Source of the DNA: Deltaproteobacteria bacterium
Lineage (GTDB): Bacteria; Desulfobacterota; Desulfarculia; Adiutricales; Adiutricaceae
Direction: 5' to 3'
NCBI GenBank assembly: GCA_031264145.1
Contig: JAISEK010000173.1
Location: 1 to 64,000 of the forward strand
DNA length: 64,000 bases
Below the pieces are notes generated by a model, which worked only from the letters and a program-made list of their open reading frames with translations, made no database searches and was not told where the DNA came from. Position numbers and translations under genes: made by a program. This document shows positions 9,268 through 48,181 of this stretch, one piece after another (position 1 is the stretch's first letter; each line of letters begins with the position of its first letter).

Positions 9268-9272
9268 CTCGG

Positions 9273-9664: not shown

Positions 9665-9967
<303 letters not shown>

Positions 9968-10923: not shown

Positions 10924-10951
10924 GGCCAGCCCTCCCCCCCCCGGCCGGTGC

Positions 10952-11647
10952 CTAGACGGCCAGAAAATCACCGATCGTCCTGTCGTCCAGGTCCCCCATG
11001 CCTCCGCTGGCCACCACCCGGCCCCGCTCCATGATGGCGTAGAGGTCGGCCACCTTCCTGGCCACGGGAACCTTCTGCTCCACCTGGAGGACCGTCAGGC
11101 CCATCTCGCCGGTGAGCCTCCGGACGATCCCGACAATCTCGGAGACGATGTTGGGCTGGATGCCCTCGGTAGGCTCGTCGAGGACGAGGACGTCCGGCCC
11201 CGTCGCCAGGGCCCTGGCGATGGCCAGCTGCTGCTGCTGGCCCCCGGAGAGATCGCCCCCGCGGCGGGAGCGCATCTCCCGGAGGACGGGGAAGAGGTCG
11301 AACACGGCCCCAGGGACCGAGCCGGCCCCGTCGCGCCTCGCTGCCAGGGGCAGGCGCAGGTTCTCCTCGACCGTGAGGAGGGGGAAGATCTGGCGGCCCT
11401 GGGGCACGTAACCCAGGCCATGCCTGGCCCGCCAGTGCGGGCCGCGGCCTGACAGGTCCTCCCCCCCAAGGAGGATCCGGCCCCGCCTGGCCGGGACGAG
11501 GCCCATCAGGCACTTGAGGAGCGTGGTCTTGCCGACCCCGTTGCGGCCCATCAGGCAGGTGCACCGGCCCCTGGGGACCTCCAGGTCGACGCCCCGGAGG
11601 ATGTTGCTTTGTCCGTAGAACTGGCAGAGGCCCTCTATGGCGATCAT
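10952..11647 (-). CDS. urtE: urea ABC transporter ATPase UrtE
   Basis: This LivF-type ATPase of 231 residues has Walker A GRNGVGKTT (residues about 35-43), the signature LSGGQQQQLAIARAL, Walker B DVLVLDEPTEGI and a switch His region. With UrtD it powers urea import. The ATG at 11647 has a GGAAGGGG site; a TTG six bases upstream is the only alternative. EGIQPNIV after Walker B is typical of UrtE. It is followed directly by ureD, joining transport to urease. Confidence 0.94.
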   Translation of the reverse strand: MIAIEGLCQFYGQSNILRGVDLEVPRGRCTCLMGRNGVGKTTLLKCLMGLVPARRGRILLGGEDLSGRGPHWRARHGLGYVPQGRQIFPLLTVEENLRLPLAARRDGAGSVPGAVFDLFPVLREMRSRRGGDLSGGQQQQLAIARALATGPDVLVLDEPTEGIQPNIVSEIVGIVRRLTGEMGLTVLQVEQKVPVARKVADLYAIMERGRVVASGGMGDLDDRTIGDFLAV

Positions 11648-11669
11648 CCCCAAACCCCTTCCACCGGGC

Positions 11670-12524: not shown

Positions 12525-13648
12525 GGCTCCCTCCCGCCGGGCCGGGCCAGGAGGCCGGCCAGGCCGCGGGGCAGAAAGACGGCCACGGCCACGAAGAGGC
12601 CGCCCAGGACGAAGGGCCAGGCCAGCGGGAACGAGCCGGTCAGGGCCGACTTGGCCAGGTTCACCAGGATGGCCCCGGCCACGGCCCCGTAAAGCGTCCC
12701 CCGCCCGCCCAGGGCCACGCAGACGACCATCTCCACCGAGAACACCGGGGCGAAGAGGCCAGGGTTTATGATGCCCGCCTGGGGCACGTACAGGGCCCCG
12801 GCCAGGCCGGCCATCATGGCCGAGACGGTGAAGACGAAGAGCTTGACCCTCTCCACCCGGTAGCCGGCGAAGCGGACCCTGGCCTCGTCGTCGCGGATGG
12901 CGACCATGGCCAGTCCCAGCCTCGAGACGGCCAGATAGCGGCACACGAGGTAGGAGGCCATCAGAAGAAGCCCGGAGAGGGCCATGAGGGCACAGGACAT
13001 GCCGGCCGAGCGGACGTCGCGGCCCAGGATGGCCTTGAAGTCCGTGAAGCCGTTGTTCCCGCCGAAGCCCAGGCCGTTCAGGAAGAAGGCCAGCATGAGG
13101 GCGTAGGCCAGGGCCTGGCTGATGATCGAGAAATAAACGCCCGAGACCCTGGACCGGAAGGCGGTCCAGCCGAAGACCAGAGCCAGCAGCCCGGGGGCCA
13201 GCACGGCCAGGAGGCAGGAGAACACGAAGCTGCCGCTGCCCAGCCAGTACCACGGCAGCCCGTCCCAGCCCAGGAAGACCATGAAATCAGGGAGCCCCGA
13301 GTCCCCGTAGACGCCCCTGGCCCCAATCTGCCGCATCAGGTACATGCCGAAGGCGTAGCCGCCCAGGGCGAAGAAGGCCCCGTGGCCCAGGCTCAGGATG
13401 CCCAGATAGCCCCACACGAGATCGATTGACAGGGCCAAAGTGGCGTAGCAGAGATATTTCCCGAAAATGATGACGGTGTAGGGCTCGGCGTGCAGGAACG
13501 CCCCCGGCCCGGCCAGAAGGCCCCAGGACAGTAGCCCAACCGCACCGGCCAGCGCGAGGCAGAAGATCCTGGCCGGCCGGTCCAGGATCCGCCCAGGCGC
13601 GCCCTTGGCCGGGACGCCCGGCCCCTTGTCTTCCATGGCTTTCCTCAC
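12521..13648 (-). CDS. urtC: urea ABC transporter permease UrtC
   Basis: This LivM-type inner-membrane permease of about 375 residues has eight or more hydrophobic segments and the signature DLVWGYLGILSLGHGAFFALG. The GTG at 13648 overlaps the urtB stop by four bases (GTGA). An ATG twelve bases further in (13636) has a better GAGGA site and would remove four residues. Together with UrtB it forms the urea channel. Confidence 0.93.
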   Translation of the reverse strand: MRKAMEDKGPGVPAKGAPGRILDRPARIFCLALAGAVGLLSWGLLAGPGAFLHAEPYTVIIFGKYLCYATLALSIDLVWGYLGILSLGHGAFFALGGYAFGMYLMRQIGARGVYGDSGLPDFMVFLGWDGLPWYWLGSGSFVFSCLLAVLAPGLLALVFGWTAFRSRVSGVYFSIISQALAYALMLAFFLNGLGFGGNNGFTDFKAILGRDVRSAGMSCALMALSGLLLMASYLVCRYLAVSRLGLAMVAIRDDEARVRFAGYRVERVKLFVFTVSAMMAGLAGALYVPQAGIINPGLFAPVFSVEMVVCVALGGRGTLYGAVAGAILVNLAKSALTGSFPLAWPFVLGGLFVAVAVFLPRGLAGLLARPGGREP

Positions 13649-15267
13649 AGGGCCGCCGCCCGTCCCTTCTGGGGGAACAGGCCGCTGGGATGACGCTGGA
13701 TGAAGAGGATGATTCCGGCCATGATGAGGATCTTGGCCAGGATGGCCCCGCCGGCTGGCTCCAGGAACTTGTTGGCCAGGCCAATGATCAGTCCGCCCAG
13801 GAAGGTGCCCCAGAGGTTCCCGACCCCGCCGAAGACGACGACCATGAAGGAATCCACTATGTAGCCCTGGCCCAGGTTTGGGCCGACGTTGGCCAGCTGG
13901 CTCAGGGCCACCCCGGCCAGGCCGGCCACGCCCGAGCCCAGGGCGAAGGTCAGCGTGTCGACGCGCCTAGCGTCGACGCCCAGGGCCTGGGCCATGGCCC
14001 TGTTCTGGGTCACGGCCCTCACCTCCAGGCCCAGCCTGGAACGCCTCATGACCAGGCCAATCAGGACAAAGACGGCCAGACAGAAGCCGACCACGTAGAG
14101 CCGTCCGTGGGCGATGGCCAGGTGGTCCGAGAGGCGCAGGAGGCCGGCCATGAAGTCCGGGGTCTCCACGCTCCTGTTGTTGGGGGATACGATGAGCTTG
14201 ACGGCCTGCTGCAGTATCAGGCTGACCCCGTAGGTGGCCAGGAGAGTCTCCAGCGGCCGGCTGTAGAGATGCCGGATGACGGCCATCTCCAGGGCCGCCC
14301 CGGCCATCCCCGTGGCCGCGAAGGCTACGGGGATGGCCAGGACCAGGGCCAGGCCGGGCCTTCCGGGCATCATGGTCTGGAGGCCCCAGACGGCGTATGC
14401 CCCCAGCATGACCATCTCCCCGTGGGCCATGTTGATGACCCCCATGACCCCGAAGGTGATGGCCAGGCCGATGCCTATGAGGGCCAGCACCGAGCCCAGG
14501 GAGAGGCCGAAGAAGACCGTCTCGAAGAAGGCTATCCGCTCCAGATCGGCGTCCTGCCTGGAGATGGCCTCCCTCGCGGCGGCAGCCAGGTCAGGATCCC
14601 CGCTGGCCATCCAGGCCCGCATGGCCTCCCGGGCCTCGGGGGTGAGGTCCGAGGCCAGAAGCCGCAGCGCACCCAGGACCTCGCCCTTTCCGGCCGCCTG
14701 GTCCCGAAGGACGCCAAGGGCCAGGATCTTCCCGTACAGGCGCCTGGTACCGGGGTCGGTCTCCCTGGCCGCGAGATTCCCCACCAGGCCCAGATCCACG
14801 GTCCTGGAGGAGACCAGGGCGGCGGCGGCCCTTCTCCTCGCGGCCGGGTCGGGGCTCAGGAGGGCGCGGCCGCCCAGGATGGCGGCCAGGGCCTCCCGCT
14901 GCCTGTTGTTTATGCCGACTTTCCTGAGGCCCGCCCAGTCCGGCGGCACCGCCGCCCCACTGTCCCCCAGGGGTGCCGGTCCCTCCGGGCCCCCGTCCAC
15001 GTACAGCGTCCCGGTGGCCCTGTCCAGCAGAAGGCGGCCCTCGGCGAGGGCCTCCAGGACCATCGCGGCCTCCCCGGAGGGGTCAGCGGCCAGGAGCCCG
15101 ATGGCCGAATCCCGGTCGTTGACCCTGGGCCCGCGCAGGCCAGCCAGGGCCTCCTCGGAAAGCCCTCCCCCGGCGGCCCCGGCCGGCCCGGCCAGGGCCA
15201 GGAGGAAAAACATGGCCCAGACCAGCGGCCGCCCAGCCCAGCATCCTGCGACGAAAGAACTCAACAT
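13645..15267 (-). CDS. urtB: urea ABC transporter permease UrtB with N-terminal helical domain
   Basis: The 540-residue product has three parts: a Sec signal peptide (about residues 1-30), a soluble helical region rich in Ala and Arg (about 35-235) as is standard in UrtB, and a LivH-type permease domain (about 245-535) with ITFGVMGVINMAHGEMVMLG. The ATG at 15267 is preceded by a GGGGAGG site; an upstream in-frame start at 15354 would add a non-conserved leader. The gene begins the long minus-strand run to glnB. urtA is not adjacent: two plus-strand genes lie between them. Confidence 0.94.
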   Translation of the reverse strand: MLSSFVAGCWAGRPLVWAMFFLLALAGPAGAAGGGLSEEALAGLRGPRVNDRDSAIGLLAADPSGEAAMVLEALAEGRLLLDRATGTLYVDGGPEGPAPLGDSGAAVPPDWAGLRKVGINNRQREALAAILGGRALLSPDPAARRRAAAALVSSRTVDLGLVGNLAARETDPGTRRLYGKILALGVLRDQAAGKGEVLGALRLLASDLTPEAREAMRAWMASGDPDLAAAAREAISRQDADLERIAFFETVFFGLSLGSVLALIGIGLAITFGVMGVINMAHGEMVMLGAYAVWGLQTMMPGRPGLALVLAIPVAFAATGMAGAALEMAVIRHLYSRPLETLLATYGVSLILQQAVKLIVSPNNRSVETPDFMAGLLRLSDHLAIAHGRLYVVGFCLAVFVLIGLVMRRSRLGLEVRAVTQNRAMAQALGVDARRVDTLTFALGSGVAGLAGVALSQLANVGPNLGQGYIVDSFMVVVFGGVGNLWGTFLGGLIIGLANKFLEPAGGAILAKILIMAGIILFIQRHPSGLFPQKGRAAAL

Positions 15268-15347
15268 GGGCCCGTCCTCCCCGGTCCTGCGGCGGGGCGC
15301 CCCCACCCCATTGTCCGCGGCCTTCCCGCCATCCCGCAAAAAAATGG

Positions 15348-15551
15348 TTGACAAGGAAGCTGATATTTAGGAAACTTGTGGCCGGTCACGAAGACCGCGT
15401 TTTTTCCCCGGCCTGGCCCCACTGGCGCACCCGGGATCGGAACATGCCCTTTCGGCAAGGCCACGAAGGCCGGTCACTCCTTTGGCGACATGGGGGGGAC
15501 CGGCCTTTTTTTGCCGCCCTCTCCCGGGCGGACGTACAAAGGGGGATCCCA
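15348..15551 (+). promoter_or_regulatory. candidate attenuating leader of the nikL/nikK-like genes
   Basis: The divergent gap between urtB and the nikL-like gene carries a TTGACA hexamer at 15348-15353 with no good -10 element. A terminator at 15468-15512 lies before the ribosome binding site AAGGGGG and the ATG at 15552. The terminator's 5' arm is part of a 10-mer, GGCCGGTCAC, that also occurs exactly at 15380-15389. Either copy could pair with the terminator's 3' arm, and the first copy can also form its own small hairpin with GACCG. This is the layout of an attenuator or riboswitch. I do not recognise a known class. Confidence 0.5.
15468..15512 (+). terminator. intrinsic terminator inside the nikL-like leader
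   Basis: An 8-bp perfect GGCCGGTC/GACCGGCC stem (15468-15475 with 15498-15505) is followed at once by seven T residues on the plus strand. It stands 40 bases before the start codon of the nikL-like gene, so it would act on that gene's own transcript. Confidence 0.65.
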
Positions 15552-16031
15552 ATGGCCCGAACAATCATCGCCCTTCTCGTCCTGGCCCTTCTCCAGGCCA
15601 CCCCGGAGGCCCTGGCCCACGGGGTCGTCTGGCGCGAGCGCGCCCCTGACGGGACCGTCGCCCTCGGCTTCCTCTATTCCGACCAGACCCCCATGGCCTA
15701 CAGCAGGGTCGAGCTGTTTTCCCCCCTCGACGCCCAGGTTCCCTTCCAGAGCGGCGTGACCGACAGGAACGGGGGCTTTGCCTTCATCCCCGACGCCCCC
15801 GGGACCTGGTCCTTCGGCGCCAGCGACGGCCAGGGCCACCTGGCCTCGGGCCAAATCGAGGTCCTCCTCCCCGGCTCGCCCGCCTCCTCCCTGGAGGCGA
15901 AGGGGCTTGCCCCCGGCGGCCAGGCCGGGGCGGGCTGGGAGAGGATAGCCCTGGGCCTTTCCGCCATCCTCAACCTGGCCCTCGTCGCCCTGGCCCTCCG
16001 AGGGGGGCCGGGGAAGACCGGGCCGGCTTGA
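15552..16031 (+). CDS. nickel-uptake NikL-like periplasmic protein
   Basis: The 159-residue product has a Sec signal peptide (1-22) ending ALAHG, so the mature protein begins with a His. An immunoglobulin-like carboxypeptidase-regulatory fold follows (residues 25-110), and then a C-terminal transmembrane helix (about 133-150) with a basic tail. This build matches NikL/CbiL-type accessory components of ECF nickel and cobalt transporters. An AAGGGGG site precedes the ATG; longer upstream frames have no support. It is followed after 84 bp by a NikK-like gene, and both lie inside the urea/urease locus, which needs nickel. No NikM, NikQ or NikO is in the window. Role is inferred from build and context. 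Confidence 0.72.
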   Translation: MARTIIALLVLALLQATPEALAHGVVWRERAPDGTVALGFLYSDQTPMAYSRVELFSPLDAQVPFQSGVTDRNGGFAFIPDAPGTWSFGASDGQGHLASGQIEVLLPGSPASSLEAKGLAPGGQAGAGWERIALGLSAILNLALVALALRGGPGKTGPA

Positions 16032-16115
16032 GGCCCAGAGAACCCCATGGGCCCAGCGGGCCCGAGACCAGCCAGAGGGCAAACCCTTCGGCCAACCCTA
16101 TCTTCGGAGGATCCG

Positions 16116-16901
16116 ATGACGAGAACGAGCCTTCTTTTCGCGGCCCTGGCCGCCCTCCTTCTCCCGGCCGGCCCGGCCGGGGCCCACGACATGTGGGCCA
16201 CCGCAGACAACCCCGCCGAGGGGGCCCCGCTTTCGGCGACCATAGGCTATGGCCACGACTTTCCCGCCCTGGAGGACATCCCTGCCGACGAGCTCCCCTT
16301 CTTCCAGGTCTGGGCCGTGGGCCCCGACGGGCGCATAGAGCTCTCCCAAGGCAGCCCCAACCACGTCTTCAGGTCCAAGGAAAGCCTGGCCCGGTCCACC
16401 TACCTGGTCATCAGCGACGTCAAGCCCATCTACTGGTCCAGGACGCCCTCCGGCGAATGGTCCATGAGGCGCAAGGACGAGACGCCAGGGGCCGTCGAGT
16501 GCGGCTACTACATCGAGGGGGCCAAGGGCATCGTCCAGGTCGGCGGCGACTCCGCCTCCGCCCTGGCCTCAAGGCCCCAGGGCCTGCCATTGGAGATCGT
16601 GCCCCTGGCCCACCCCGGGACGGTCAGGCCTGGCCAGAGGCTGGTCCTGCAGGTCCTCTTCCAGGGCCAGCCCCTGCCCGGCGCCGAGGTCCGCGCCCGC
16701 TACGGCGGTTTTCCCGCCCTGGCCTCCAAGACCGCCCAGGCCTTCGTCGACTCCGCCGACCAGGAGGGCAAGGTCAGCTTCGTGCCCCTGGCCGCAGGGG
16801 ACTGGATCGTGACTGCCCGCAACAAGACGGCCTACGAGGGGCCTGGAGACTGCGACGCCACCGACTACGGGACCAGCCTCCATTTCGCCATCTGGGAATA
16901 A
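16116..16901 (+). CDS. DUF4198 periplasmic protein, NikK-like
   Basis: The 261-residue product has a Sec signal (1-23) cleaved before HDMWA. A His right after cleavage is typical of DUF4198/NikK proteins and is a likely metal ligand. Two beta-rich domains follow. Cys residues in VECGYY and GDCDATDYG recur at equivalent positions in the second DUF4198 protein at 44973-45749, so a disulfide or metal site is likely. The ATG at 16116 has a CGGAGG site. DUF4198 proteins accompany nickel and cobalt transporters and TonB systems. Together with the upstream gene it forms a small plus-strand operon facing urtA. Confidence 0.8.
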   Translation: MTRTSLLFAALAALLLPAGPAGAHDMWATADNPAEGAPLSATIGYGHDFPALEDIPADELPFFQVWAVGPDGRIELSQGSPNHVFRSKESLARSTYLVISDVKPIYWSRTPSGEWSMRRKDETPGAVECGYYIEGAKGIVQVGGDSASALASRPQGLPLEIVPLAHPGTVRPGQRLVLQVLFQGQPLPGAEVRARYGGFPALASKTAQAFVDSADQEGKVSFVPLAAGDWIVTARNKTAYEGPGDCDATDYGTSLHFAIWE

Positions 16902-16926
16902 CCCCCGGGGAGAAACCCGCCATCCC

Positions 16927-16970
16927 GGCCAGTCCAGGGGGGCAGCCCGGCCCCCCTGGACTGGCCTTTC
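16927..16970. terminator. bidirectional terminator between the nikK-like gene and urtA
   Basis: A perfect 16-bp stem (16927-16942 with 16951-16966) with an 8-nt loop sits between two converging genes and is followed by TTTC on the plus strand. It can serve both transcripts. Confidence 0.75.
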
Positions 16971-16979
16971 CCGTCGGCC

Positions 16980-18266
16980 CTACTCCGTCCCGCCGCCGCA
17001 GGTCCTGGTCTCGCGGTTGTAGTTCCCGCAGTTGACTGGCCCCGTCCAGTCGGCGTCCAGATCGGCCGACTCAGGGAGGAAGTCCGACCAGGCGTCGCCC
17101 TCTACCTCGGCCTCGGTCTGCCAGACCACCTGGAACTGGCCGTCGGACTGGATCTCGCCGATCAGGACCGGCTTGGTCAGATGGTGGTTTGGGAGGACCC
17201 TGGCCACCCCGCCGGTAAGGTTGGGGACCTCCAGGCCCACCAGGGCCCCAAGGACCTGGTCCACGTCGACCGTCCCGGCCTTCTCCACGGCCTTGACCCA
17301 GAGATTGAAGCCAATGAGGCTGGCCTCCATGGGATCGTTGGTCACCCTGGCCTCATCCCCGACGTATTCCCTCCATCTTCTGACGAAGGCCTCGTTGGCC
17401 GGGCCCTCGACGCTCTGGAAGTAGTTCCAGGCCGCCAGGTGGCCCACCAGGGGGCCGGCGTCGATGCCGCTCAGCTCCTCCTCCCCGACCGAGAAGGCCA
17501 TGACCGGGATGCTCCCGGCGGCGACGCTCTGGCTGGCCAGCTCCTTGTAGAAGGGCACGTTCGCGTCCCCGTTTATGGTCGAGATGACGGCCGTCTTCCT
17601 GCCAGCGCCGCCGAAACGCTTTATCTCGGCGACAATGGACTGCCAGTCGCCGTGCCCGAAGGGCGTGTAGTTGACCGCGATGTCCTCCTGGGCCACGCCC
17701 TTGGAGAGGAGATAGGCCTCGATTATCTTGTTGGCCGTCCTGGGGAACACGTAGTCGGTCCCGGCCAGGTAGAACCTGGCCACCCCCAGCTCGCCCAGCA
17801 GATAATCTATGGCCGGGATGGCCTGCTGGTTGGGGGCCGCGCCGGTGTAGACGACGTTCCGGCTGGACTCCTGGCCCTCATACTGGACCGGGTAGAACAG
17901 AAGGCCGTTATGCTCCTCGAAGACCGGCAGGACCGACTTCCTGGAGACCGAGGTCCAGCAGCCGAAGACCACGGCCACCTTGTCCTGGGTCAACAGCTGG
18001 AGGGCCTTCTCGGCGAACATCGGCCAGTCGGAGGCCGGGTCGACCACCACAGCCTCGAGCTTTTTCCCCAAAAGCCCCCCCTTCTGGTTCTGCCCCTCTA
18101 TGAGCATGAGCAGGGCGTCCTTCAGGGTGGTCTCGCTTATGGCCATGGTCCCCGAGAGGGAATGAAGGATGCCGACCTTGATGGTCTCGTCCGCGGCCTG
18201 GCCCGGATGGGCCGACCAGACGAGACAGGCGACGGACAAAAAAGCGATAAGCTTGGCCCAACGCAT
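16980..18266 (-). CDS. urtA: urea ABC transporter substrate-binding protein UrtA
   Basis: The 428-residue periplasmic binding protein has a Sec signal (1-24), then ETIKVGILHSLSGTMAISE, the standard opening of UrtA, and the conserved GCWTSVSRKSVLPVFEEHN and YPVQYEGQE segments that line the urea pocket. The ATG at 18266 has an AGGAGG site. It ends CGNYNRETRTC, the usual UrtA tail with two Cys. It is upstream of urtB on the same strand but separated from it by 1.7 kb holding the plus-strand nikL/nikK-like genes and a strong terminator. It therefore cannot share a simple transcript with urtBCDE. Confidence 0.96.
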   Translation of the reverse strand: MRWAKLIAFLSVACLVWSAHPGQAADETIKVGILHSLSGTMAISETTLKDALLMLIEGQNQKGGLLGKKLEAVVVDPASDWPMFAEKALQLLTQDKVAVVFGCWTSVSRKSVLPVFEEHNGLLFYPVQYEGQESSRNVVYTGAAPNQQAIPAIDYLLGELGVARFYLAGTDYVFPRTANKIIEAYLLSKGVAQEDIAVNYTPFGHGDWQSIVAEIKRFGGAGRKTAVISTINGDANVPFYKELASQSVAAGSIPVMAFSVGEEELSGIDAGPLVGHLAAWNYFQSVEGPANEAFVRRWREYVGDEARVTNDPMEASLIGFNLWVKAVEKAGTVDVDQVLGALVGLEVPNLTGGVARVLPNHHLTKPVLIGEIQSDGQFQVVWQTEAEVEGDAWSDFLPESADLDADWTGPVNCGNYNRETRTCGGGTE

Positions 18267-19295
18267 GATTTCCTCCTGTCTGGGCATTGGTTGCCGTGTC
18301 ATTTGGCGTCCGGCCCTGGCCAATCGTAGCCTGGACGTGGACCGCCATCGAGGCCATGTGGGCCCCTTGTCCCTGGCGGGCGCCTGGTAACCGTCAACGG
18401 CGCGCCCCGTTGGGGGGGGCGGGCCGGCCGGACAGGGTTCTAGGCCGGGCCGGCCGGCCGCGTCTTTGGGAAGAGGCTTGGCAGGACTTTCTTGAATTCC
18501 GGCCCCAGGCGTAAGGGAGACGCCCCTGTGGGGCCGGCGAGGACGGCGGGCGGGAACCATATCACGGGAAGGCTATATTGCATCAAGCGGGCCAAATGGC
18601 CCCTGGACACCAGGCCAGACATAACGCAGCGAAAAGACTAGATATATTTTCCAAGAACCGGGTATGCCCCCTCATATTGGGCCCCAAACCGTGGTTTTCC
18701 GGGCCTCCAGGGCCAATAAAACCGACATATTTGTCGGAAAACCATGAGAACGCCCACCAGACGCCGAAAAAAGACCAGAGGCACCCAGAAAAGGAGGCCT
18801 GGCTGGCAGACGGCCCAGGGGCCGGGACGGCTGGCCGGCGATCCTGGCCCCATGCCGCCGCCCCCAATAGACTCTTTAAAAAATCCAGAAATAAGCTATA
18901 ATTTATCCACCGTTGGACCTTTTGGTTTTCGGACTTTGATTTTGGTCAAGCTTTTCGCCTTATTACGTGAGTCCGACCAAAGCTCGACGCCCAGGGCCGC
19001 CCCCGGTCTTTGCCCGCGCCCCTGGAGGAGCCCTTTCCTTCCGGCCTCCCATGCCCGCCGTACCAGAACCGCCGGCCCCAGCTGGGCCCGTCCCAAACTT
19101 GGCCTGGTCCTTGCTTATGTTCCGGCCGGGTCAGGAATTTTTAGCCCTTTTCCCCCTAACGGGAGTTCGCCTGGACCAAAACAATTTTGGGGATCTTATA
19201 GTATCCATTGATTTTAATTGTAATTAAAAAATATTAACAACTTAAAACATATAATTAAATAGAATAAGCAACCGATCTATTTAAGGACTAAATAA
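18267..19295. other. gene-free spacer of about 1 kb
   Basis: Divergent spacer between urtA (minus) and the sensor kinase (plus). GC-rich coding-like but broken sequence fills 18360-18560, and the last 100 bases before the kinase are AT-rich. A 6-4-6 palindrome, CCGACA-TATT-TGTCGG, lies at 18722-18737 and could be an operator. No RNA gene or clear promoter was recognised. Confidence 0.5.
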
Positions 19296-39559: not shown

Positions 39560-40645
39560 ATGGACCAGCAATCGCCCCTATTGGGCCGACCCGCCCGCTT
39601 CTGGAAATCGGAGGGGCAAAAAGGCGCCGTCGCCTGCCAGGCATGCTTCCACAATTGCCTCATCCCCGAAGGCCACCGAGGGTTCTGCCAGTCGCGGGCC
39701 AACCATAATGGTATGCTCTATGCGCTCAACTACGGCTTCACGGGGGCCCTGGCGCTGGACCCGGTAGAAAAAAAGCCCCTCTTCCACTTCCAGCCCGGCT
39801 CCATGACCTTCTCGGTAGGAGCCCCTGGCTGCAACCTTACCTGCCTGGGTTGCCAGAACCACGACCTCTCCCGGCCTGGCCCGGCCTGGCCCGGGGGCAG
39901 GTACGACCATGGAATCGTCTTCCGTCTTGGGCAGATGGCCATGGACAACCAGGCCGACAGCTGGTCGTTCACCTACAGCGAGCCGACGGTCTTCCTCGAA
40001 TACGCCATGGATCTGGCCCAGGAAGCCCACGCCAGCGGGTTACCATCGATCTGGGTCACCAACGGCTCCATGTCGGCCGACCTCCTCAAGGCCCTGCCCC
40101 CGGCCGTCGAGGCCATGAACGTGGACCTCAAGGGCTTCACGGAAAAATTCTACTCCGAGGTCGCCGGCGGCCGGCTGGCCGTGGTCAAGGACAACATCGC
40201 CCTGGCCCTTTCCCTGGGCATCTGGGTGGAGGTGACCACCCTCCTCATCCCTGGCCTCAACGACTCGGAGGGAGAACTGGGCGAGCTGGCCGCCTTCCTG
40301 GCCTCGCTCTCGCCGGACCTACCCTGGCACGTCAGCCGCTTCTTCCCCAGACACCGGCAATCCGACGTCCCAGTCACCTCCACCAAAAGCCTCCTCGCGG
40401 CCAGGGAAATCGGCCTTTCCAAGGGACTTAGGTTCGTCTACCTCGGCAACGTCGCCGGTCCTGGCTTCGCCGATACCGTCTGCCCCGGCTGCGGCCGGAC
40501 CCTGGTCGCCAGGAACGGCTTCCTGGTCATGAAAGACGAGCTGGCCGGTCAGGATCGATGCTCCTTCTGCCGAACAGCGATAGCCGGCCGCTGGGGACGA
40601 GACCCGTCCCAAGGCCAGAAGCGTCTTCACAAACTGGCACCTTAG
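39560..40645 (+). CDS. amrS: AmmeMemoRadiSam-system radical SAM enzyme
   Basis: The 361-residue protein contains the radical SAM cluster motif in GCNLTCLGCQNHD (CxxxCxxC) and an N-terminal Cys pair ACQACFHNC typical of AmrS (formerly called PFL-activating-enzyme-like). C-terminal zinc-like Cys pairs occur in CPGCGRTL and CSFCRTAI. The partner Memo-AMMECR1 genes are not in the window. The exact reaction of the system is unsettled. The ATG at 39560 follows the lptE stop by four bases. Confidence 0.93.
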   Translation: MDQQSPLLGRPARFWKSEGQKGAVACQACFHNCLIPEGHRGFCQSRANHNGMLYALNYGFTGALALDPVEKKPLFHFQPGSMTFSVGAPGCNLTCLGCQNHDLSRPGPAWPGGRYDHGIVFRLGQMAMDNQADSWSFTYSEPTVFLEYAMDLAQEAHASGLPSIWVTNGSMSADLLKALPPAVEAMNVDLKGFTEKFYSEVAGGRLAVVKDNIALALSLGIWVEVTTLLIPGLNDSEGELGELAAFLASLSPDLPWHVSRFFPRHRQSDVPVTSTKSLLAAREIGLSKGLRFVYLGNVAGPGFADTVCPGCGRTLVARNGFLVMKDELAGQDRCSFCRTAIAGRWGRDPSQGQKRLHKLAP

Positions 40646-40778
40646 TGGTAAACTAGCCCGGTCATCACGCAGGCCCAATCGGGACACCCTCTTGGGGTTC
40701 CTCTGGCCGACATCTGACGCACCGGTGAACCTGGAAGGACCGTAACCGCATCAAAGAATAGTCAGAAAACCTAAAAGC

Positions 40779-40872
40779 GGAGACGTACCGAAGTGGCCGT
40801 AACGGGGGCGACTCGAAATCGTCTTGTCGGTGATGAGCCGGCACGTGGGTTCGAATCCCACCGTCTCCGCCA
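40779..40872 (+). tRNA. tRNA-Ser (anticodon CGA)
   Basis: A complete class II tRNA: acceptor GGAGACG pairs with CGTCTCC at 40862-40868, with discriminator G and encoded CCA. The anticodon stem GGCGA/TCGTC encloses the loop CTCGAAA with anticodon CGA at 40814-40816. A long variable arm follows, then a T arm GTGGG-TTCGAAT-CCCAC. It reads UCG codons. A terminator follows about 50 bases later. Confidence 0.96.
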
Positions 40873-40924
40873 ACCCTTGGTTTATTCAATTTTTTTTGGT
40901 TTTATGTCGTTTGTTCTCGTTCTC

Positions 40925-40958
40925 AAAACCCCTTGCAAATCAAGGGGTTTTCGTTTTT
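40925..40958 (+). terminator. intrinsic terminator after tRNA-Ser
   Basis: An 11-bp perfect stem, AAAACCCCTTG/CAAGGGGTTTT, with a 5-nt loop is followed by CGTTTTTT. Confidence 0.85.
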
Positions 40959-41089
40959 TGGGTTCATTTTCGTCCACTTTGGACATTTGACATTCTCGAT
41001 ATTTTAAGTCAAAAATTGAGCGGAAGGCCCACATGATAGGTTAAATCAACTCGTCACGAACCATAATTAACCAATTAACTATGTAATGC

Positions 41090-41222
41090 CAACAACTTAA
41101 GGTGTTGCACCCTCAGATATGAAAAAATGGTATTCGTTCATGAATCGTTAACTGGGGAGCAAGATGTCTGATTCTTTATACTGGGTACAGAAACCGGGTG
41201 CCGAGATTGGCTTAAGTTGTTG
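41090..41222. mobile_element. 133-bp element bounded by 12-bp inverted repeats
   Basis: CAACAACTTAAG at 41090-41101 and its exact inverse CTTAAGTTGTTG at 41211-41222 bound an interval without an open frame. Next to it is a short transposase C-terminal scar. It could be a MITE or one end of a deleted insertion sequence. Confidence 0.45.
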
Positions 41223-41236
41223 ACATTGGGCGTGGC

Positions 41237-41275
41237 CTACATCTTCACCACAGCATCGTCAAAGAAGTCGGCAAG
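41237..41275 (-). pseudogene. C-terminal scar of a transposase-like gene
   Basis: Twelve codons on the minus strand read LADFFDDAVVKM and then a stop, right beside the inverted-repeat element. Upstream sequence is AT-rich and not coding. The string looks like the tail of an insertion-sequence gene; the family is uncertain. Confidence 0.3.
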
Positions 41276-41377
41276 GTTTTGTCAGAAAAAAATATTACTA
41301 TTATAAATTTATACAGCAATATTTCATCTATAATAGAACAATTATTTCTATTATATAATATAAAATTATTATATTTT

Positions 41378-43540
41378 TTATTCCCAATTAATATCCATGC
41401 CAAGATAAAAAGCCCTTGGATTGCCCCAAGATTCAGAATAACTATTTTGGCCAGCAGCACTTGTTATTGCGCCTGGTTGATAGTTATCATGGTCAAACAA
41501 GTTAGTTATATCAAGAAAAAGCTTATATTTATCATTAAATCTATAGTTAAGCTGGACGTCAAAATACCATTTGTCAGGTGATACCCACTGATTATTGTAG
41601 TTACTGGTGCCATTTATTCTGAATTCAGGCAAATTTCTAGCTAGGTTATCGCCTTCAAAACGATATTTGAGACGTCCCCCGAGACCTGTAACAGGCTCAT
41701 AGGCTACTTCGAGATTAACGATAGTTTTAGGGACCCCAGTCATCCGATACCCATCTAAAATATCATTTTGTGTTCTACTACTCCTATATTTTGCAATTTG
41801 ATATGTGTAATTACCTGATAATAACAAATATTCTATCGGTCTAACCTCAAATCCAGCCTCAATCCCATGGCGTCGAGTTTTTCCGGCATACACTATTTGG
41901 GGTGTGTTAGTAATGGGATCGTTCTCATACGTCTGGTCATGGTCCGTGTTTATGCTATAAAAAATCATCTCAAAGTTCACCCAATTCAATGGTCTCACAC
42001 GATAACCAAGTTCGATCTGATCGCGTTTCATCGTTTCCCCAAAGACAAAGAAACGACCAGCAGTCATGCTAGTCAAACTGTAGCCACGGCCAAAATTGGC
42101 GAAAAGGTCAAGCCATTCCATGGGAGTCACTAAAATTCCGGCTTTAGGCTGGAATAACCCTTGTGAAGGAGCTTTATAATTTGAATTAGGGCTTAAAATT
42201 GGAACTGATCTATCATTTTGAAATTGTCCAGTCTGTAATTTACCATTATATCTGTCATAACGTGCTCCCAATCGAAGCTGTAAATGTTCTAATACTTGGT
42301 ATGTAACTTCTGAAAATAGTGATAGCGTATTTAAATTATAGTTTGTATCAGTATATTGTGGTCCTCTTCTTCTGCCTTGACCCCATATTTTCCTATATCT
42401 ATCTCTTATCTCATTTTCATGCAAAAAATCAGATCCAATAGTTAAATTAGCTGCTTTATCGGCAATTAGACCTTTATAATTATAAGAAAGACCTAGACCG
42501 ACTGCTTTTCGCGAGCTAGACTGTTCATTGTTTGAACCATCCATTGGAGCACCATATCCATTAAATCCACTGCTATCAGGCCCAAAAGTTATATCACCTA
42601 TATAGCTTAAGCCTGCGGGATAACCAAACTCCCACCTGGTGTTGGTAAGATCGGTGAAGTAGCTGTAGAAGGTCAGCTGCTGCTCATCGGTCAATTGGTA
42701 ATTGGCCCAAAGGCGGGCATCAAACCGCCGGCGGACTCCGCCGTTGCTTTCCCCGCTGCCGTCATCGACATAGTCCCTTTTGTTTTGCCCCAGATCGTGG
42801 CGAAGGCTGCCCGCGTTGTTCCATTCCGAGTAATAGCCCCTTACGTTTAGGCTGGTCTGGAATTTGTCGGTAAAATGGTAAGTCCACCGGCCGGAAAAAT
42901 TGCCCCTGTTCCAATCCGACTTCTGCCGCCAACCATCGGTGTGGAAAATCTGGAAGGCGTAAACATGGTCCATTTTTCCGTCTGTCCGGGCTATAATCCC
43001 AGATGCGTCGGCCATGTTGTCGCTGCCATACCTTAGGGCGAAACGGGTGAAATCGCCTGCCTTGTAACTTTGAAAGGCCATTGTCCCGCCCGAGGCACCT
43101 GTTCCGTAATACACCGAGGCAGGGCCCTTGATAATCTCCAATTGTTCAATTTCCAGTGGTATTATCAGGTTTGAGTCGATATAGTTGTCGGTATGGCCGC
43201 TATCCTGGAGAGGGATGCCGTCAAGATACATGGCCAAATCCCCACCGTGGGAACCACTAAAGGTGCGTATCCTGGCCGTTGGCGCAACGCCATTGTTGGT
43301 CGATGGATTGATGCTGGTCCCAGGGCTAAGAAGCATCATGTCCAGTGGCTGGACGTAAATCCGATCCGTCACTTCTTTGTTGCCCAAAACCGTGGCGCTG
43401 GTGCTCTGAAGCTCCTCACGGCGGACCTGCCCCCTGACGTCAATTTCCGACAGCACCTCCTCCTCTTCCTGGGCAATAATGGCCAGGGCAGGAAAAATCA
43501 AGGTGAAGATTAACCCAATGAAAAGAATCTGTTTCAACAT
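41378..43540 (-). CDS. TonB-dependent outer-membrane receptor
   Basis: The 720-residue product has a signal peptide (1-23), a TonB-box region near EEVLSEIDVRG, and a plug domain with ARIRTFSGSHGGDLAMYLDG and QLEIIKGPASVYYGTGASGG. A 22-strand barrel follows, ending in YLGMDINWE. Such receptors import siderophores, cobalamin, haem or nickel chelates. tonB and a NikK-like DUF4198 gene lie upstream on the same strand, so a metal ligand such as nickel is plausible. Base composition changes within the gene: the N-terminal part (above about 42,610) is GC-balanced while the rest is AT-rich, suggesting recombination between divergent alleles. Confidence 0.92.
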   Translation of the reverse strand: MLKQILFIGLIFTLIFPALAIIAQEEEEVLSEIDVRGQVRREELQSTSATVLGNKEVTDRIYVQPLDMMLLSPGTSINPSTNNGVAPTARIRTFSGSHGGDLAMYLDGIPLQDSGHTDNYIDSNLIIPLEIEQLEIIKGPASVYYGTGASGGTMAFQSYKAGDFTRFALRYGSDNMADASGIIARTDGKMDHVYAFQIFHTDGWRQKSDWNRGNFSGRWTYHFTDKFQTSLNVRGYYSEWNNAGSLRHDLGQNKRDYVDDGSGESNGGVRRRFDARLWANYQLTDEQQLTFYSYFTDLTNTRWEFGYPAGLSYIGDITFGPDSSGFNGYGAPMDGSNNEQSSSRKAVGLGLSYNYKGLIADKAANLTIGSDFLHENEIRDRYRKIWGQGRRRGPQYTDTNYNLNTLSLFSEVTYQVLEHLQLRLGARYDRYNGKLQTGQFQNDRSVPILSPNSNYKAPSQGLFQPKAGILVTPMEWLDLFANFGRGYSLTSMTAGRFFVFGETMKRDQIELGYRVRPLNWVNFEMIFYSINTDHDQTYENDPITNTPQIVYAGKTRRHGIEAGFEVRPIEYLLLSGNYTYQIAKYRSSRTQNDILDGYRMTGVPKTIVNLEVAYEPVTGLGGRLKYRFEGDNLARNLPEFRINGTSNYNNQWVSPDKWYFDVQLNYRFNDKYKLFLDITNLFDHDNYQPGAITSAAGQNSYSESWGNPRAFYLGMDINWE

Positions 43541-43589
43541 GCTCCATGCTCCACATTTTGCGCAGTAAACAAATAACTAGGAGTCATTA

Positions 43590-43618
43590 TTGACAAATTA
43601 CTGGCATACTGCGATAAT
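43590..43618 (+). promoter_or_regulatory. near-consensus sigma-70 promoter diverging from the receptor gene
   Basis: TTGACA (43590-43595), a 17-bp spacer and GATAAT (43613-43618) lie on the plus strand, 50 bp from the receptor start. No convincing protein gene follows, so a non-coding transcript is likely. Confidence 0.7.
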
Positions 43619-43624
43619 ATGGCC

Positions 43625-43740
43625 GGGTTTATGGCCACGGCCTGTACAGCCCAAGGCAGCCTTGTCGAGGTCTCAATTCGAGGCAAGGCTGCCTCTCAAA
43701 AATTATCCGCCGTCAAATTATGCCCTGTTGGGGCCTCGGT
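43625..43740 (+). ncRNA. candidate structured small RNA
   Basis: Downstream of the promoter at 43590, the predicted transcript folds a 10-bp perfect stem, GGCAGCCTTG/CAAGGCTGCC (43655-43664 with 43684-43693), and a second GC hairpin near 43727. No U-tract directly follows, so the 3' end is unknown. A 66-codon frame from 43619 starts inside the -10 element and is unlikely to be translated. The remainder up to 44131 is AT-rich and shows nothing else. Confidence 0.35.
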
Positions 43741-44131
43741 AAAAAATCTCAGAACAATGTTGAGCTATTTAAAATTTACCATAACTAACAAAAGTCTATG
43801 TTTATATATTATTATATAATCAAAATTAATGATTTATAATATTTATTTCCCCAAAAGAATAATATTAGCATCTTAACCAGAAAAACATCTTTTATTACTC
43901 CCAATAGCTATCTCAAAAGCAAAGAATCAGGACTAAAACCCCTCTCGATTTTTAGTCTTGGTCCTTAAATTATTTGTACAGTCGGACGAAAGGCTGGGTG
44001 AATCCGTTATATAGGCGCAGCCCATATATATATAGATTACGATGCGGGATAATTTTGTCACTAAGCCTCACCTACAAACTTTTTAAAAATACTATTTTAT
44101 TTTTTATCATAATTAATAATATTTATCATTT

Positions 44132-44980
44132 TTAACGCACGGAAAACTTTAAAGGCACGGTCAATTTCAGATTGGCCCCGACGAAGCTGTTGGGCAGGGG
44201 CGGCAGAGGCGAACACCTGACCGGCAGAGCCACAGCTTCGTCGTCAAGCAGCTGGTGGCCGGAACTTTTGACCAGGCTGGAGGAATGTACCGAACCGTCC
44301 TTGGCGACGATGAAACTCACGGTCGCCGTCCCAGCCAGTCCGCGGCTTTGAGCCGCCGAGGGATATTTCTTCCTGCGCTCTAACCTCTGCCTGACCTTGT
44401 TCTTGTAGGCGTTCATCTCATTGGGATTCCCCGTCCCCGTCCCGCCAGGGGTGCCACCTGGCCCGCCGTCCCCGGCCCCAGGGATGCCGCCAATGACTCC
44501 GTCTGGGTTGATGCCCTGGCTCGAAGCCTCGACCGGCGTGGCCGGTTTGGGTTTGACCTTGGGCTTTGGCCTTTCCGCCATCGGTTTTTCCGAGGGTGGA
44601 GGCGGAGCCAGCACCGGGGTGACCTCGGCCTGCTCGGCCAGGCTTTCCAGGAGGGTCAGGTCTTCCGGTTCCGCTTCAAGCTCCGGAAACTGGTCGGGCT
44701 CTGGTTCTGGCTTAGTCTCGGGCCCGTCTGGCGCCTCGGCCACGGGTCCCCCGTCGCCACCGTCACCGCCCTGGCCGCCAAAGGGATCGAATTCGGAGAA
44801 ATCCATCACGGCCAAAGGCACGAGGTCGGGTTTTCCAGGGCCAGGGTCCATGGCCAGACCGGCCAGGGCGATGCCGTGCATCAAGAGTCCCATGACCAGG
44901 GCCTTGATGAATATCCGGCGCTCGAGACGGTATTCGCACTCAAGGGCCTTTGGCTCGAACTTCACGGCACCGTCACTCAA
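44132..44980 (-). CDS. tonB: TonB-family energy transducer
   Basis: The 282-residue protein has a cytoplasmic start and one membrane helix (about 28-45). A long Pro/Glu/Lys-rich spacer with KPKVKPKPATP is followed by a Gly/Pro linker and a C-terminal TonB domain with YPSAAQSRGLAGTATVSFIV and VKSSGHQLLDDEAV. It couples the inner-membrane ExbB-ExbD motor to outer-membrane receptors; exbB and exbD are not here. The TTG start at 44980 overlaps the end of the DUF4198 gene by eight bases; a GTG at 44965 is an alternative. It probably serves the neighbouring receptor. Confidence 0.88.
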   Translation of the reverse strand: MSDGAVKFEPKALECEYRLERRIFIKALVMGLLMHGIALAGLAMDPGPGKPDLVPLAVMDFSEFDPFGGQGGDGGDGGPVAEAPDGPETKPEPEPDQFPELEAEPEDLTLLESLAEQAEVTPVLAPPPPSEKPMAERPKPKVKPKPATPVEASSQGINPDGVIGGIPGAGDGGPGGTPGGTGTGNPNEMNAYKNKVRQRLERRKKYPSAAQSRGLAGTATVSFIVAKDGSVHSSSLVKSSGHQLLDDEAVALPVRCSPLPPLPNSFVGANLKLTVPLKFSVR

Positions 44981-45749
44981 CTATGGAAAAGGCCAGCGAG
45001 GCGGAATATGTTTCCCGGCCGCAGACGCTCTCGTCGGGATATGGGTCGGACTTGCTGACTTTGGCCAGCCAATTGCCTGGCCTCAGGGGAACGATATCGA
45101 CAAGGCCGTCCTGGTCGGTCTCTGCCTGGAAGGCCAGGGCTGCGTTGCGATCGGAGAACCCGGCGAAGAAGGCTCCCACGCTGGCCGCGGGCAGGGGCTG
45201 GCCGTCAAATAGGACCTTGACAGGAAACTTGTCCCCAACCTTGACCTTCCAGGGGTTAACCTGGGGCACTATTTCAAGCTTATGGCCCACCGGCTTGGAG
45301 ACGAAGGCCTCGGGCCCGGCCTGGCCTAGGTTCAGGAGATTTTTGCCGAAGTTGGCCCCAAAGGAACAACTCACGGCGGACGGCTCCTCGGCCCTGGATT
45401 TTCTGACGAAGCCGTTGGGGGTCCGGCTGGCAAAGCCCAGCTTGCTGGCCGCCAGGACATAGTAGCTGCCGGCGGCCAGGGATTCCTCGGAGACGAAATT
45501 CTGAGCGAGCGCGCCCTGAGTAAGCTTAATCTCGCTGCCAAGGCCGACCAGTCTGACCGGCTCGAACCTTTCGGCGTAAACATCAGCCTTGATTTCGTCG
45601 GCGACAGGGAAACCATGCCCAAAGCCCTGGAAAACTTGGATCTGCTCGCCAATGGCCGCTTTTTCCACGCCAGCCCAGAAGTCATGGGCCAGGGCAGGGA
45701 CGGACGAAAGAACCGCGAGAAAGGCCAAAGTAAGTGTCGTTCTAACCAT
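44973..45749 (-). CDS. DUF4198 periplasmic protein (second NikK-like paralogue)
   Basis: The 258-residue product has a Sec signal (1-21) cleaved before HDFWAGVEKA, leaving an N-terminal His. It aligns along its length with the DUF4198 protein at 16116-16901: shared features include GHGFP/GHDFP, the AVSC/AVEC Cys, KLEIVP/PLEIVP, FDGQPLP/FQGQPLP and a late Cys before LAFSIVE/LHFAIWE. DUF4198 proteins accompany nickel and cobalt importers. Here the gene overlaps tonB and is followed by a receptor gene, suggesting a TonB-driven metal uptake unit. The ATG has a GGGAG site. An upstream leader contains a terminator. Confidence 0.85.
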   Translation of the reverse strand: MVRTTLTLAFLAVLSSVPALAHDFWAGVEKAAIGEQIQVFQGFGHGFPVADEIKADVYAERFEPVRLVGLGSEIKLTQGALAQNFVSEESLAAGSYYVLAASKLGFASRTPNGFVRKSRAEEPSAVSCSFGANFGKNLLNLGQAGPEAFVSKPVGHKLEIVPQVNPWKVKVGDKFPVKVLFDGQPLPAASVGAFFAGFSDRNAALAFQAETDQDGLVDIVPLRPGNWLAKVSKSDPYPDESVCGRETYSASLAFSIVE

Positions 45750-45814
45750 TTTCTGGCTCCCTATTTTTTAACGTCTGGGATTTAGGCTTTTCGAGCCAAT
45801 TTGCATCGTTCACA

Positions 45815-45857
45815 AAATAAAAAAACCTCTTTCAGGAGCATTCCTGAAAGAGGTTTT
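45815..45857 (-). terminator. perfect leader terminator before the DUF4198-tonB operon
   Basis: A 16-bp perfect stem (45822-45837 with 45842-45857) with a 4-nt loop reads on the minus strand into TTTTTTTATTTT. It lies between the promoter at 46043-46071 and the DUF4198 start at 45749, so it would stop that operon's own transcript unless an alternative fold forms. Confidence 0.85.
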
Positions 45858-46036
45858 CATAACCAATGCAATTTATACTATATATAATTAAAAATTAACT
45901 TTCATAGTTAAAGCAAATTATATATCTAGCAAAGCAACAAGCATTTAAAAATAAAGAGAAATAGTATCTTACGCACGAGATGGACTCCAATGCGGTTCAG
46001 GGCATCAGCTTTTCGAAAAGCCGCCTTTACAGACTG
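45858..46036 (-). promoter_or_regulatory. candidate riboswitch/attenuator leader, class unknown
   Basis: About 180 nt lie between the predicted start of transcription and the terminator. The proximal part has a self-complementary GCTTTTCGAAAAGC hairpin enclosed by a GCGG/CCGC stem, then ATTGGAGTCCATCTCG. The distal part is AT-rich. I recognise no known riboswitch core, including cobalamin, TPP, SAM, FMN, fluoride or Moco. Confidence 0.45.
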
Positions 46037-46042
46037 GTCTAG

Positions 46043-46071
46043 ATTATCTCCTCATTGCATGTCAATGTCAA
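46043..46071 (-). promoter_or_regulatory. near-consensus sigma-70 promoter of the DUF4198-tonB operon
   Basis: On the minus strand TTGACA (46071-46066), a 17-bp spacer and GATAAT (46048-46043) are found. Two bases differ from neither hexamer's core beyond the first -10 position, making it the strongest promoter on this strand here. Confidence 0.8.
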
Positions 46072-46799
46072 GAGGGGGGTAAAAATAATTGACCTGCGAA
46101 ATCAGGCAAATGACGTTGGCCTAGGTTCTAAACAGAAGTGAAGTTGACATAAATTTAATAAAATTAAACAATATATATACTGTAAATATTGGTTATTATA
46201 AATTTTTACAGTATAAATATTAATAAATATGATTATTTATATCCCAAGGAATCCAATGGCCATGAGCGACAACAGCTGGCCTAACCTTAGGAGGGAGAAG
46301 GCGATGGGCATAAAATTTGGCTTGCCATCGGGGAAAGCGTTTGGTATAAATCCCAGAGACAGTTCCGTTCAATCGATTCGTCCATGGGCCCTGGCCAAAG
46401 AGCCTTTGGCCAGTAGGCATGGCAGGCCGGCGAGCCAAACCGGCCTAAACGCCCGTCGGAGGATCTTTCCCGCCCAGCCAGGCATTGGGAAACGGATGCC
46501 CGGGGCCTTGACCTCGCCCATTGTCCTTTCACGTCGGACGAATTGGTAAATTGGGGGCAAAAAGCCCCTATGGATCCAAGAACTAGGATCCAAATTGGAA
46601 AGTTTGGGGACCACAGACTGTCCGCCTCGCCTTGACCTCACTTTATTAGTCTACCTAGCTTTCCATGGTTTTATAAGTTTCATTGTTATCAGGTCAAGAA
46701 GGCCTATCGGAGGTAACAGCCCGATGGGTCTTTTTTTATGTCCAACGCTAGATATTTTTTGATTTTAATTATAATTTTAAGCTAATTTTGAGGTATAAA
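46072..46799. other. gene-free spacer
   Basis: AT-rich at 46130-46240, then GC-mixed sequence. A 106-codon frame at 46229-46549 has no ribosome binding site and no recognisable protein. An intrinsic terminator is at its right end (46701-46737). Confidence 0.4.
46701..46737 (+). terminator. intrinsic terminator ahead of the IS630-like gene
   Basis: GGCCTATCGG pairs with CCGATGGGTC (two G-U pairs), with a 10-nt loop, followed by seven T residues. It ends any plus-strand transcript from the spacer about 60 bp before the next gene. Confidence 0.6.
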
Positions 46800-47279
46800 A
46801 TGTGTAAAAAATACATCGTCGAGCTAAGCGGGGGAGAGATCCAGGAATTGACCGCCATATTAAACAGGGGCAAGCACCCGGCCCAGAAGAGGAAAAGGGC
46901 CCACGCCCTGCTCCTGGCCAGCGAAGGCAGTAAGTCCGACAAAGAGATTGCCAAAATCGTCCTCATGAACGAGCAGAGCGTGACCGAACTCAGGAAGCGC
47001 TTTTCCCAAAATGGTTTCGGGATGGCCCTGAACAGTCTGCCCCACCGCCGGAGGCCAAAGGCCATTGACGGCGAGAACGAGGCCAGACTCTTGGCCCTCG
47101 CCACCCGGGAACGCCAGGAAGGGAGGCAGCAGTGCAGCCTGAGAACCCTGGCCAGAAAATTCGTTACCTCCGATGGCCGGCGCGTCTCCCATGAGACCAT
47201 CAGGCAGGCCCTAAAGAAGATGGGGGCCGGGGCAGCACCGAGTTCTGAATGGGTGGAATCAGAAACCAACGTCATCTAG
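46800..47279 (+). CDS. IS630-family DNA-binding domain protein without transposase core
   Basis: The 159-residue product matches the N-terminal helix-turn-helix half of IS630-type transposases: KRAHALLLASEGSKSDKEIAK, LRKRFSQNGFGMALNSLPHR and VSHETIRQALKKMGAG. It then stops. The DDE nuclease half that should follow is absent from the 900 bp downstream. A GAGG site precedes the ATG, and the frame is intact, so it is either a first ORF of a lost element or a retained DNA-binding protein. It lies upstream of the hydrogenase operon. Confidence 0.75.
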   Translation: MCKKYIVELSGGEIQELTAILNRGKHPAQKRKRAHALLLASEGSKSDKEIAKIVLMNEQSVTELRKRFSQNGFGMALNSLPHRRRPKAIDGENEARLLALATRERQEGRQQCSLRTLARKFVTSDGRRVSHETIRQALKKMGAGAAPSSEWVESETNVI

Positions 47280-48181
47280 CGACCCTTAATCAGAAATAAT
47301 TATAGCATTGCCATTATCGGCCAGGGCCATTGATTGGGCCGCGCTGTTGACAAATCAGAGGGGCTGGCGGCCCAGCACCGGGACAGGCCATGAAGCCCAT
47401 ATCTGGAGGCTTGGGGTCCCCGGTCCACGCCTTTTTCCTCCCGGCCACCGGTCTGGACGGCAAGGGAAGGATGCTTTCTTGCCGACTGGGGCGAAAAGTG
47501 CCAAAAAAATCCAAAATATTTTTTTATCAGAAAAACATGATAGATATCGCAGGGCACTGTCTTGACCCTCTTTTCAGGCTCCCATGGATCCCTTTTGTCC
47601 TTTCACTGGAATAACTTATCGAAATTACTAAATAATATCTCCCCGACTACTTCTCCTATTATATCCTCTTCTCATCTATTGATACCTTTTACCTCCCCCA
47701 AGCCCCGGTTTCCACGATGGCCCTGGCCGAATAACCGGCCACGTGTAAACAACAAAATTTGACAAAACCTTTCCGGTGTGCTTAAATGGCTCCCAGCCCA
47801 AAAAAGAGTGGTGTGGCCTTATGCGGGATCTAGTTCAAGGACGGGATTCTTGGACTTTCTTAGATATTTTTTCCAGCCCTTGAACAAGACGGCCTCAGTG
47901 CCATGCACCACAGGGCACTTGGCGAAGGCAGGACGGCTCGGGGGAGGTGCCGGAAATCCACGGGACGGGAGGCGGGAATGACCGCTGCCCAGGCTTTTCC
48001 CAGAACATAAGAACATCTTTGTTTGCACCATAATCTTGAGAGCCGGGGCATCGGCTCTCGGGGGAGAGGACGCGAGACCGGACCCGGCCGGATGTCCTCG
48101 TGGATCCCGGAATCCCACGGGCCCAAGCCGCGGGAACATGCCAGTCTCCAAGCCTACAACATTTATGAGGAGGTAGCTGCG
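47280..48181. other. spacer and long hydrogenase leader
   Basis: No convincing gene. A promoter at 47759-47787 would give a leader of nearly 390 nt before the hydrogenase operon. An 8-bp inverted repeat, GTTCAAGG/CCTTGAAC (47833-47840 with 47878-47885), lies early in that leader. Confidence 0.4.
47759..47787 (+). promoter_or_regulatory. candidate sigma-70 promoter of the hydrogenase operon
   Basis: TTGACA and TTAAAT are spaced by 17 bp on the plus strand. Confidence 0.5.

Follow-up and report, generated by a model that had tools for sequence, protein, structure and literature searches.

How an operon is expressed when a strong intrinsic terminator stands between its promoter and its first gene is the question raised by this locus. 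The operon, which encodes a DUF4198 protein, TonB and a TonB-dependent receptor, lies on the minus strand of the window, the whole stretch of 64,000 nucleotides analysed here from a Deltaproteobacteria bacterium (assembly GCA_031264145.1, contig JAISEK010000173.1). For bacterial nickel uptake, the control known so far rests mostly on DNA-binding repressors such as NikR. An earlier note, made from the sequence alone, had instead read the locus as a TTGACA-17-GATAAT promoter, about 180 nucleotides of structured leader, a perfect 16-bp terminator with a long U-tract and the ribosome binding site of the DUF4198 gene, and had argued that the terminator must be conditional, no gene lying ahead of it. 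Promoter, terminator and ribosome binding site were all recovered in our analysis, and no gene-sized ORF was found between promoter and terminator. The locus reads as follows.

46043 to 46071, minus strand: sigma-70-type promoter TTGACA-17-GATAAT, 11 of 12 consensus bases
45895 to 45911, minus strand: P1 hairpin TTAACT-ATGAA-AGTTAA (TTAACTATGAAAGTTAA), 6 bp, loop AUGAA
45852 to 45864, minus strand: P2 hairpin GGTT-ATGAA-AACC, presumed antiterminator (alignment A3, protein-selected set)
45821 to 45858, minus strand: intrinsic terminator stem-loop, 17 contiguous pairs, 4-nt loop, T7 tract at 45825-45819
45757 to 45762, minus strand: ribosome binding site AGGGAG, read from the sequence
44973 to 45749, minus strand: DUF4198 (NikK-type) periplasmic protein (PF10670, E 5.5e-33), ATG at 45749
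44132 to 44980, minus strand: TonB (PF03544, E 4.4e-13)
41378 to 43540, minus strand: TonB-dependent receptor (PF00593 / PF07715, E 8.5e-31)

From this promoter, transcription is expected to start near position 46036 of the minus strand, about 180 nucleotides of leader separating promoter and terminator. Across positions 40000-48000 we found 21 promoter-like sites against 8.5 expected; among 63 homologous leaders, an exact TTGACA occurs in 26 on the sense strand and in 5 on the antisense strand. The terminator (45858-45821) ranks best among the 15 terminator-like sites listed for the same 8-kb region. The whole leader folds with a z-score of -6.0, none of 200 shuffles being equally stable, mostly because of the terminator. 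The length and folding of the proposed leader thus stood, but a conserved aptamer of about 180 nucleotides did not: the core proved to be two minimal hairpins and the terminator.

At curated gathering scores no Rfam family matched near the leader in the window, and a scan of 20 motif loci returned no family for the element, guanidine-II, NiCo and cobalamin riboswitches included; the only matches in the window and these loci were tRNAs and a ureB-related match elsewhere. Weak matches to rli38 (E 0.09) and PyrR (E 0.22) came from the terminator stem, far under the gathering scores, and were discarded. A cobalamin riboswitch, raised by a B12-box-like look, was dropped for want of an Rfam match. 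In the open-access literature (subscription journals were not covered) we found no description of the element as a nickel riboswitch or DUF4198 leader. The claim that the leader contains no known riboswitch core is upheld by the missing Rfam match; the new riboswitch class suggested with it remains only one option, an RNA-binding antiterminator being at least as likely.

Searching 60 relatives with the whole leader as DNA gave nothing useful because the leader is not conserved over its full length. The core emerged when regions upstream of DUF4198 homologues, chosen by protein, were aligned: right before the T tract stands a common string, GGT(C/T)A(C/T)GAA(A/G)(A/G)CC, which forms a 4-bp hairpin with the loop AYGAA, here called P2. 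This pattern followed by a T tract occurs at more than 50 distinct sites in 29 of the 60 relatives, compared with two for the reversed control pattern. The 3' arm of P2 doubles as the 5' arm of the terminator, and because the arm is shared the two structures are mutually exclusive. Among loci selected by the DUF4198 protein alone, which avoids circularity, 31 hairpins with a 5-nt loop share an arm with a terminator in this way, the loop being ACGAA or ATGAA in 11 and AAGAA in 4 more.

Alignment A3 comprises 42 units, and all 168 cells of the P2 helix are paired. Pairs 1/13 and 2/12 are mostly fixed by the search pattern, which biased part of the alignment, and we do not count them as evidence. 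Pair 4/10, left free by the pattern, is C-G, U-A or U-G and never C-A in the 42 units, and 23 of the 42 sequences have U-G at pair 3/11, which favours an RNA rather than a DNA palindrome. The terminator stem is paired in 96.6% of cells, 7 of its 9 pairs have changed on both sides, and its covariation (0.74) compares with 0.31 after shuffling. The criterion for an attenuator, namely a terminator and an alternative hairpin with a common arm, both conserved and covarying, is therefore met. Loops are ACGAA (39 of 76), AUGAA (ATGAA in DNA, 30 of 76) or AAGAA, five bases with G at position 3. P2 is far weaker than the terminator, both in the median (-3.1 versus -21 kcal/mol) and in the window copy (-1.2 versus -21.6 kcal/mol), implying that the operon would be off by default unless something binds.

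Farther upstream lies a second hairpin, P1, with the same loop. Stems of 4 bp or more flank 21 of the 49 AYGAA pentamers located 20-200 nt upstream of P2, compared with 7.5% in surrounding DNA. The loop is constant and the stems vary (AACC/GGTT, AGCC/GGCT, CATC/GATG, AACT/AGTT, GATC/GATC and others). Some leaders have no recognisable P1. In three leaders, all from one genome, the P1 stem carries a mismatch, and the P1-P2 spacing varies between about 40 nt and more than 100 nt.

We then searched with R1, a covariance model that spans P2 and the terminator, taking matches at E up to 0.05, with E-values that are only rough. R1 finds the first window copy at 45864-45816 (E 2.2e-7) and matches 56 of 63 genomes of the class, including 36 of 37 in the window's family; named matches (Desulfarculus, Desulfocarbo, Dethiosulfatarculus) identify the class as Desulfarculia. 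Two of the carriers, Desulfocarbo indianensis and Dethiosulfatarculus sandiegensis, are cultured organisms. Among the 150 R1 matches listed, a DUF4198 gene on the same strand follows within 6 kb in 45, compared with 1 match that has it upstream and 6 that have it on the opposite strand. Conversely, 43 of 125 DUF4198 genes have a same-strand R1 match within 6 kb upstream, against 0.2% by chance. Outside the class, in a 297-genome sample of the phylum, most pattern matches look like chance, but six show terminator pairing. These six, from five other families, were chosen by that pairing, blind to genes, and five of them precede NikK (DUF4198) and/or NikM (CbiM): DUF4198 lies behind the element in G097, G327 and G098, followed by CbiM in two of the three, CbiM-PDGLE in G347 and CbiM in G266. 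The sixth (G346) stands before an unrelated-looking outer-membrane protein. Small hairpins with loops AUGAA, AAGAA, AGAA and CGAA can be drawn by eye 50-80 nt upstream in these six leaders.

The earlier note had suggested looking for the leader upstream of DUF4198 and tonB genes in relatives, and had named absent conservation or an Rfam match as grounds for refutation. The covariance-model search found the element conserved with covarying stems, and neither ground materialised. With an alternative hairpin that is conserved, covaries and recurs before the same genes in relatives, the proposal of a conditional terminator ahead of a nickel- or cobalt-type uptake operon is sustained; the pair of AYGAA hairpins, the arm that P2 and the terminator have in common, and further copies near 15.4 kb and 46.7 kb (see below) go beyond it. 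Conservation, covariation, mutual exclusivity, gene context and orientation are demonstrated, as far as comparative sequence analysis, our sole source of evidence and one applied largely to incomplete, many-contig genomes, can do so.

A major question is what the element controls. Besides DUF4198, targets identified with Pfam and NCBIfam models are TonB, TonB receptors, FecCD, periplasmic binding proteins, CbiM, CbiQ and methyltransferases, as well as NikA/NikB-type transporters, with a nickel permease model above its cut-off. The FecCD and periplasmic binding proteins and many of the receptors are not nickel-specific by sequence. In six genomes CODH-like genes (L231, L146, L148, L233, L166 and L245) lie behind one to four or more tandem copies of the element. 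Their products have an extended N-terminus, and three of the six sequences, the three with a readable motif, carry Ala at the second position of the CODH Cys-Cys pair, suggesting that the CODH-like proteins may not be ordinary nickel enzymes. GrpE/HSP70 ORFs at locus L232 were rejected as targets; they lie upstream of the element. Small SAM-dependent methyltransferases recur beside or directly behind the element (L241, L246, L177, L178, L132, L144). In two other families a similar-looking small membrane protein is encoded behind the element, between the NikL-like gene and CbiM (L262:2471-2830, L263:3056-3412).

The nikK and nikL products have been proposed as components of the NikMQO nickel transporter, and the targets nikMQO, nikK and nikL liken the element to the NikR nickel regulon of other delta-proteobacteria, in which NikR is a DNA-binding repressor with sites of the form GTGTTAC-N13/14-GTAACAC (Rodionov 2004, PMC545781). 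NikR itself was rejected as the regulator, the protein being absent from 60 of 60 relatives searched, with 5 of 14 control genomes positive. Clustering of neighbouring genes revealed no recurrent regulator adjoining the motif.

Taken together, we think it likely that the element is a conserved cis-regulatory RNA, a conditional terminator that is OFF by default and that a factor acting on the AYGAA loops turns ON for nickel (possibly cobalt) supply genes. In the model we propose, polymerase would start at the TTGACA promoter and the strong terminator would form by default, leaving the operon off. A trans-acting factor, active under nickel shortage, would bind the nascent RNA at the AYGAA loops of both hairpins, probably loading on P1 first, and by keeping P2 closed would sequester the 5' arm of the terminator, allowing read-through into the DUF4198-tonB-receptor genes. 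The ON direction is an inference, as is the choice of a protein factor over a small ligand; that nickel is the signal is inferred from gene context only. As effector, an RNA-binding protein of a non-ANTAR family is our first choice and direct metal binding our second, in the absence of binding, termination or expression data. The inferred direction, ON under nickel shortage, would fit the importers and leaves control of the CODH-like genes by the same element unexplained. Indeed, uptake and CODH-like genes under one element speak against a simple nickel-starvation ON switch, except if the CODH-like proteins are something other than ordinary nickel enzymes.

Direct sensing by the RNA deserves the closest comparison. 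In a minimal riboswitch, both AYGAA hairpins together would directly recognise nickel or cobalt, as an ion or in a complex, and the terminator would respond to the binding of this small ligand. The guanidine-II (mini-ykkC) riboswitch provides a precedent, with two small hairpins and nearly identical ACG-containing loops as in our element. It differs in its ACGR tetraloop, closing pairs and targets, and our element has no Rfam match and a common arm between P2 and the terminator. The NiCo (czcD) riboswitch likewise places transition-metal genes under RNA-level control through a terminator; our element lacks its four-way junction and an Rfam match to it, and governs uptake, not export. The P1 and P2 loops are identical and conserved across families, tandem copies (four before a CODH-like gene) would fit cooperative ligand sensing, and no RNA-binding regulator has been recognised, ANTAR being absent from the window's family. 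However, a selective metal pocket is hard to accommodate in hairpins of 13 nt, the P1-P2 spacing is variable (see above), none of the Rfam riboswitches matches, and bound metal should switch uptake genes off, whereas a bound P2 would switch them on. A riboswitch is thus possible but in our judgement unlikely.

The layout of the element, with two small leader stem-loops, the second overlapping the terminator 5' arm, conserved loop bases that include a leading A and a G, and termination as the default state, recalls the antiterminators bound by ANTAR proteins (AmiR, NasR, EutV), response-regulator-like proteins that would here sit on both loops; EutV acts on hexaloops by antitermination and the terminator otherwise forms by default (PMC3369931, PMC8934654). 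ANTAR genes are present in many relatives outside the window's family. Within it, Pfam finds the domain in none of 37 genomes, though 36 of the 37 carry the RNA element, a profile built from the relatives' ANTAR proteins yields matches covering the receiver part only, and ANTAR is absent from three of the six motif genomes outside the class. Moreover, ANTAR-responsive RNAs are defined by six-base loops with A1 and G4 (PMC3369931, PMC8934654), while our element has five-base ANGAA loops with G at position 3, a longer and variable P1-P2 spacing and a strongly conserved P2 stem (GGYY/RRCC), and its regulon is metal uptake rather than, mostly, nitrogen metabolism. The element resembles ANTAR antitermination and is not a member of it; ANTAR control is largely refuted in the window's family and we regard it as improbable overall. 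A DNA operator, in which a transcription factor sits on the GGTC-N5-GACC inverted repeat and the terminator is there by coincidence, would account for a short inverted repeat near promoters. It is very improbable in view of the asymmetric AYGAA centre, always on the coding strand, of the U-G at pair 3/11, which keeps RNA pairing and breaks a DNA palindrome, and of a site downstream of the promoter that has an arm in common with a covarying terminator. Hardly credible, finally, are ribosome-mediated attenuation by a leader peptide and an ordinary constitutive terminator without regulation. In the window an ATG does lie inside the AUGAA loop of P2 and opens a 16-codon ORF, yet ACGAA and ATGAA are about equally used, ACG is no usual start codon, and no common leader ORF was seen. 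Terminator hairpins are common enough, but this one sits between a promoter and the first gene, its competing hairpin is conserved over many families, and nickel/TonB genes accompany it far more often than expected by chance.

The preferred reading thus remains a conditional terminator opened by a factor on the loops, and the element has the look of an on/off switch, not described so far, that governs the supply of nickel. On balance, and with less assurance, we favour a broader proposal: a nickel-responsive RNA switch not described before and widespread in one phylum. In it, paired ANGAA hairpins of 13 nt would sense nickel status, directly or via a non-ANTAR factor, and would take the place that NikR has in other bacteria. 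Relatives without NikR have this common RNA element before nickel importers, TonB receptors and CODH-like genes, which gives a ready-made metal-supply regulon in these anaerobes and a direct route to finding a new metal sensor or antiterminator. It also hints that nickel or cobalt uptake is the function of many TonB receptors and DUF4198 proteins that are still uncharacterised.

Two further copies lie in the window, on the plus strand.

15383 to 15397, plus strand: second copy, P1 hairpin CGGTC-ACGAA-GACCG, read from the sequence
15459 to 15471, plus strand: second copy, P2 hairpin GGCC-ACGAA-GGCC (R1 match 15459-15513, E 3.3e-7)
15468 to 15512, plus strand: second copy, terminator GGCCGGTC...GACCGGCC with T7, read from the sequence
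15552 to 16031, plus strand: NikL-like small secreted/membrane protein, first gene after the second copy
16116 to 16898, plus strand: second DUF4198 (NikK-type) gene (PF10670, E 5.3e-37)
4471 to 18563, minus strand: urease/urea-transport cluster with ureC, ureB, ureD, ureF, ureG-type and urea ABC transporter parts
46692 to 46736, plus strand: third, divergent copy, GGTC-AAGAA-GGCC and terminator (R1, E 1.8e-4)

Urease is a nickel enzyme, and the second copy, with its NikL-like and DUF4198 genes, is placed divergently within the urea-transport/urease cluster, which also encodes an ammonium transporter and PII. Its setting is G+C-rich, unlike that of the first copy. The NikL-like product (15552-16031) has no Pfam match and owes its name to the position of the gene before nikK (compare Rodionov 2004, PMC545781). 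An Rfam match to 5_ureB_sRNA at 8826-9118, antisense to ureC, probably reflects conserved coding sequence. The third copy (46692-46736) lies just before a transposase-like ORF with HTH domains (46788-47279).
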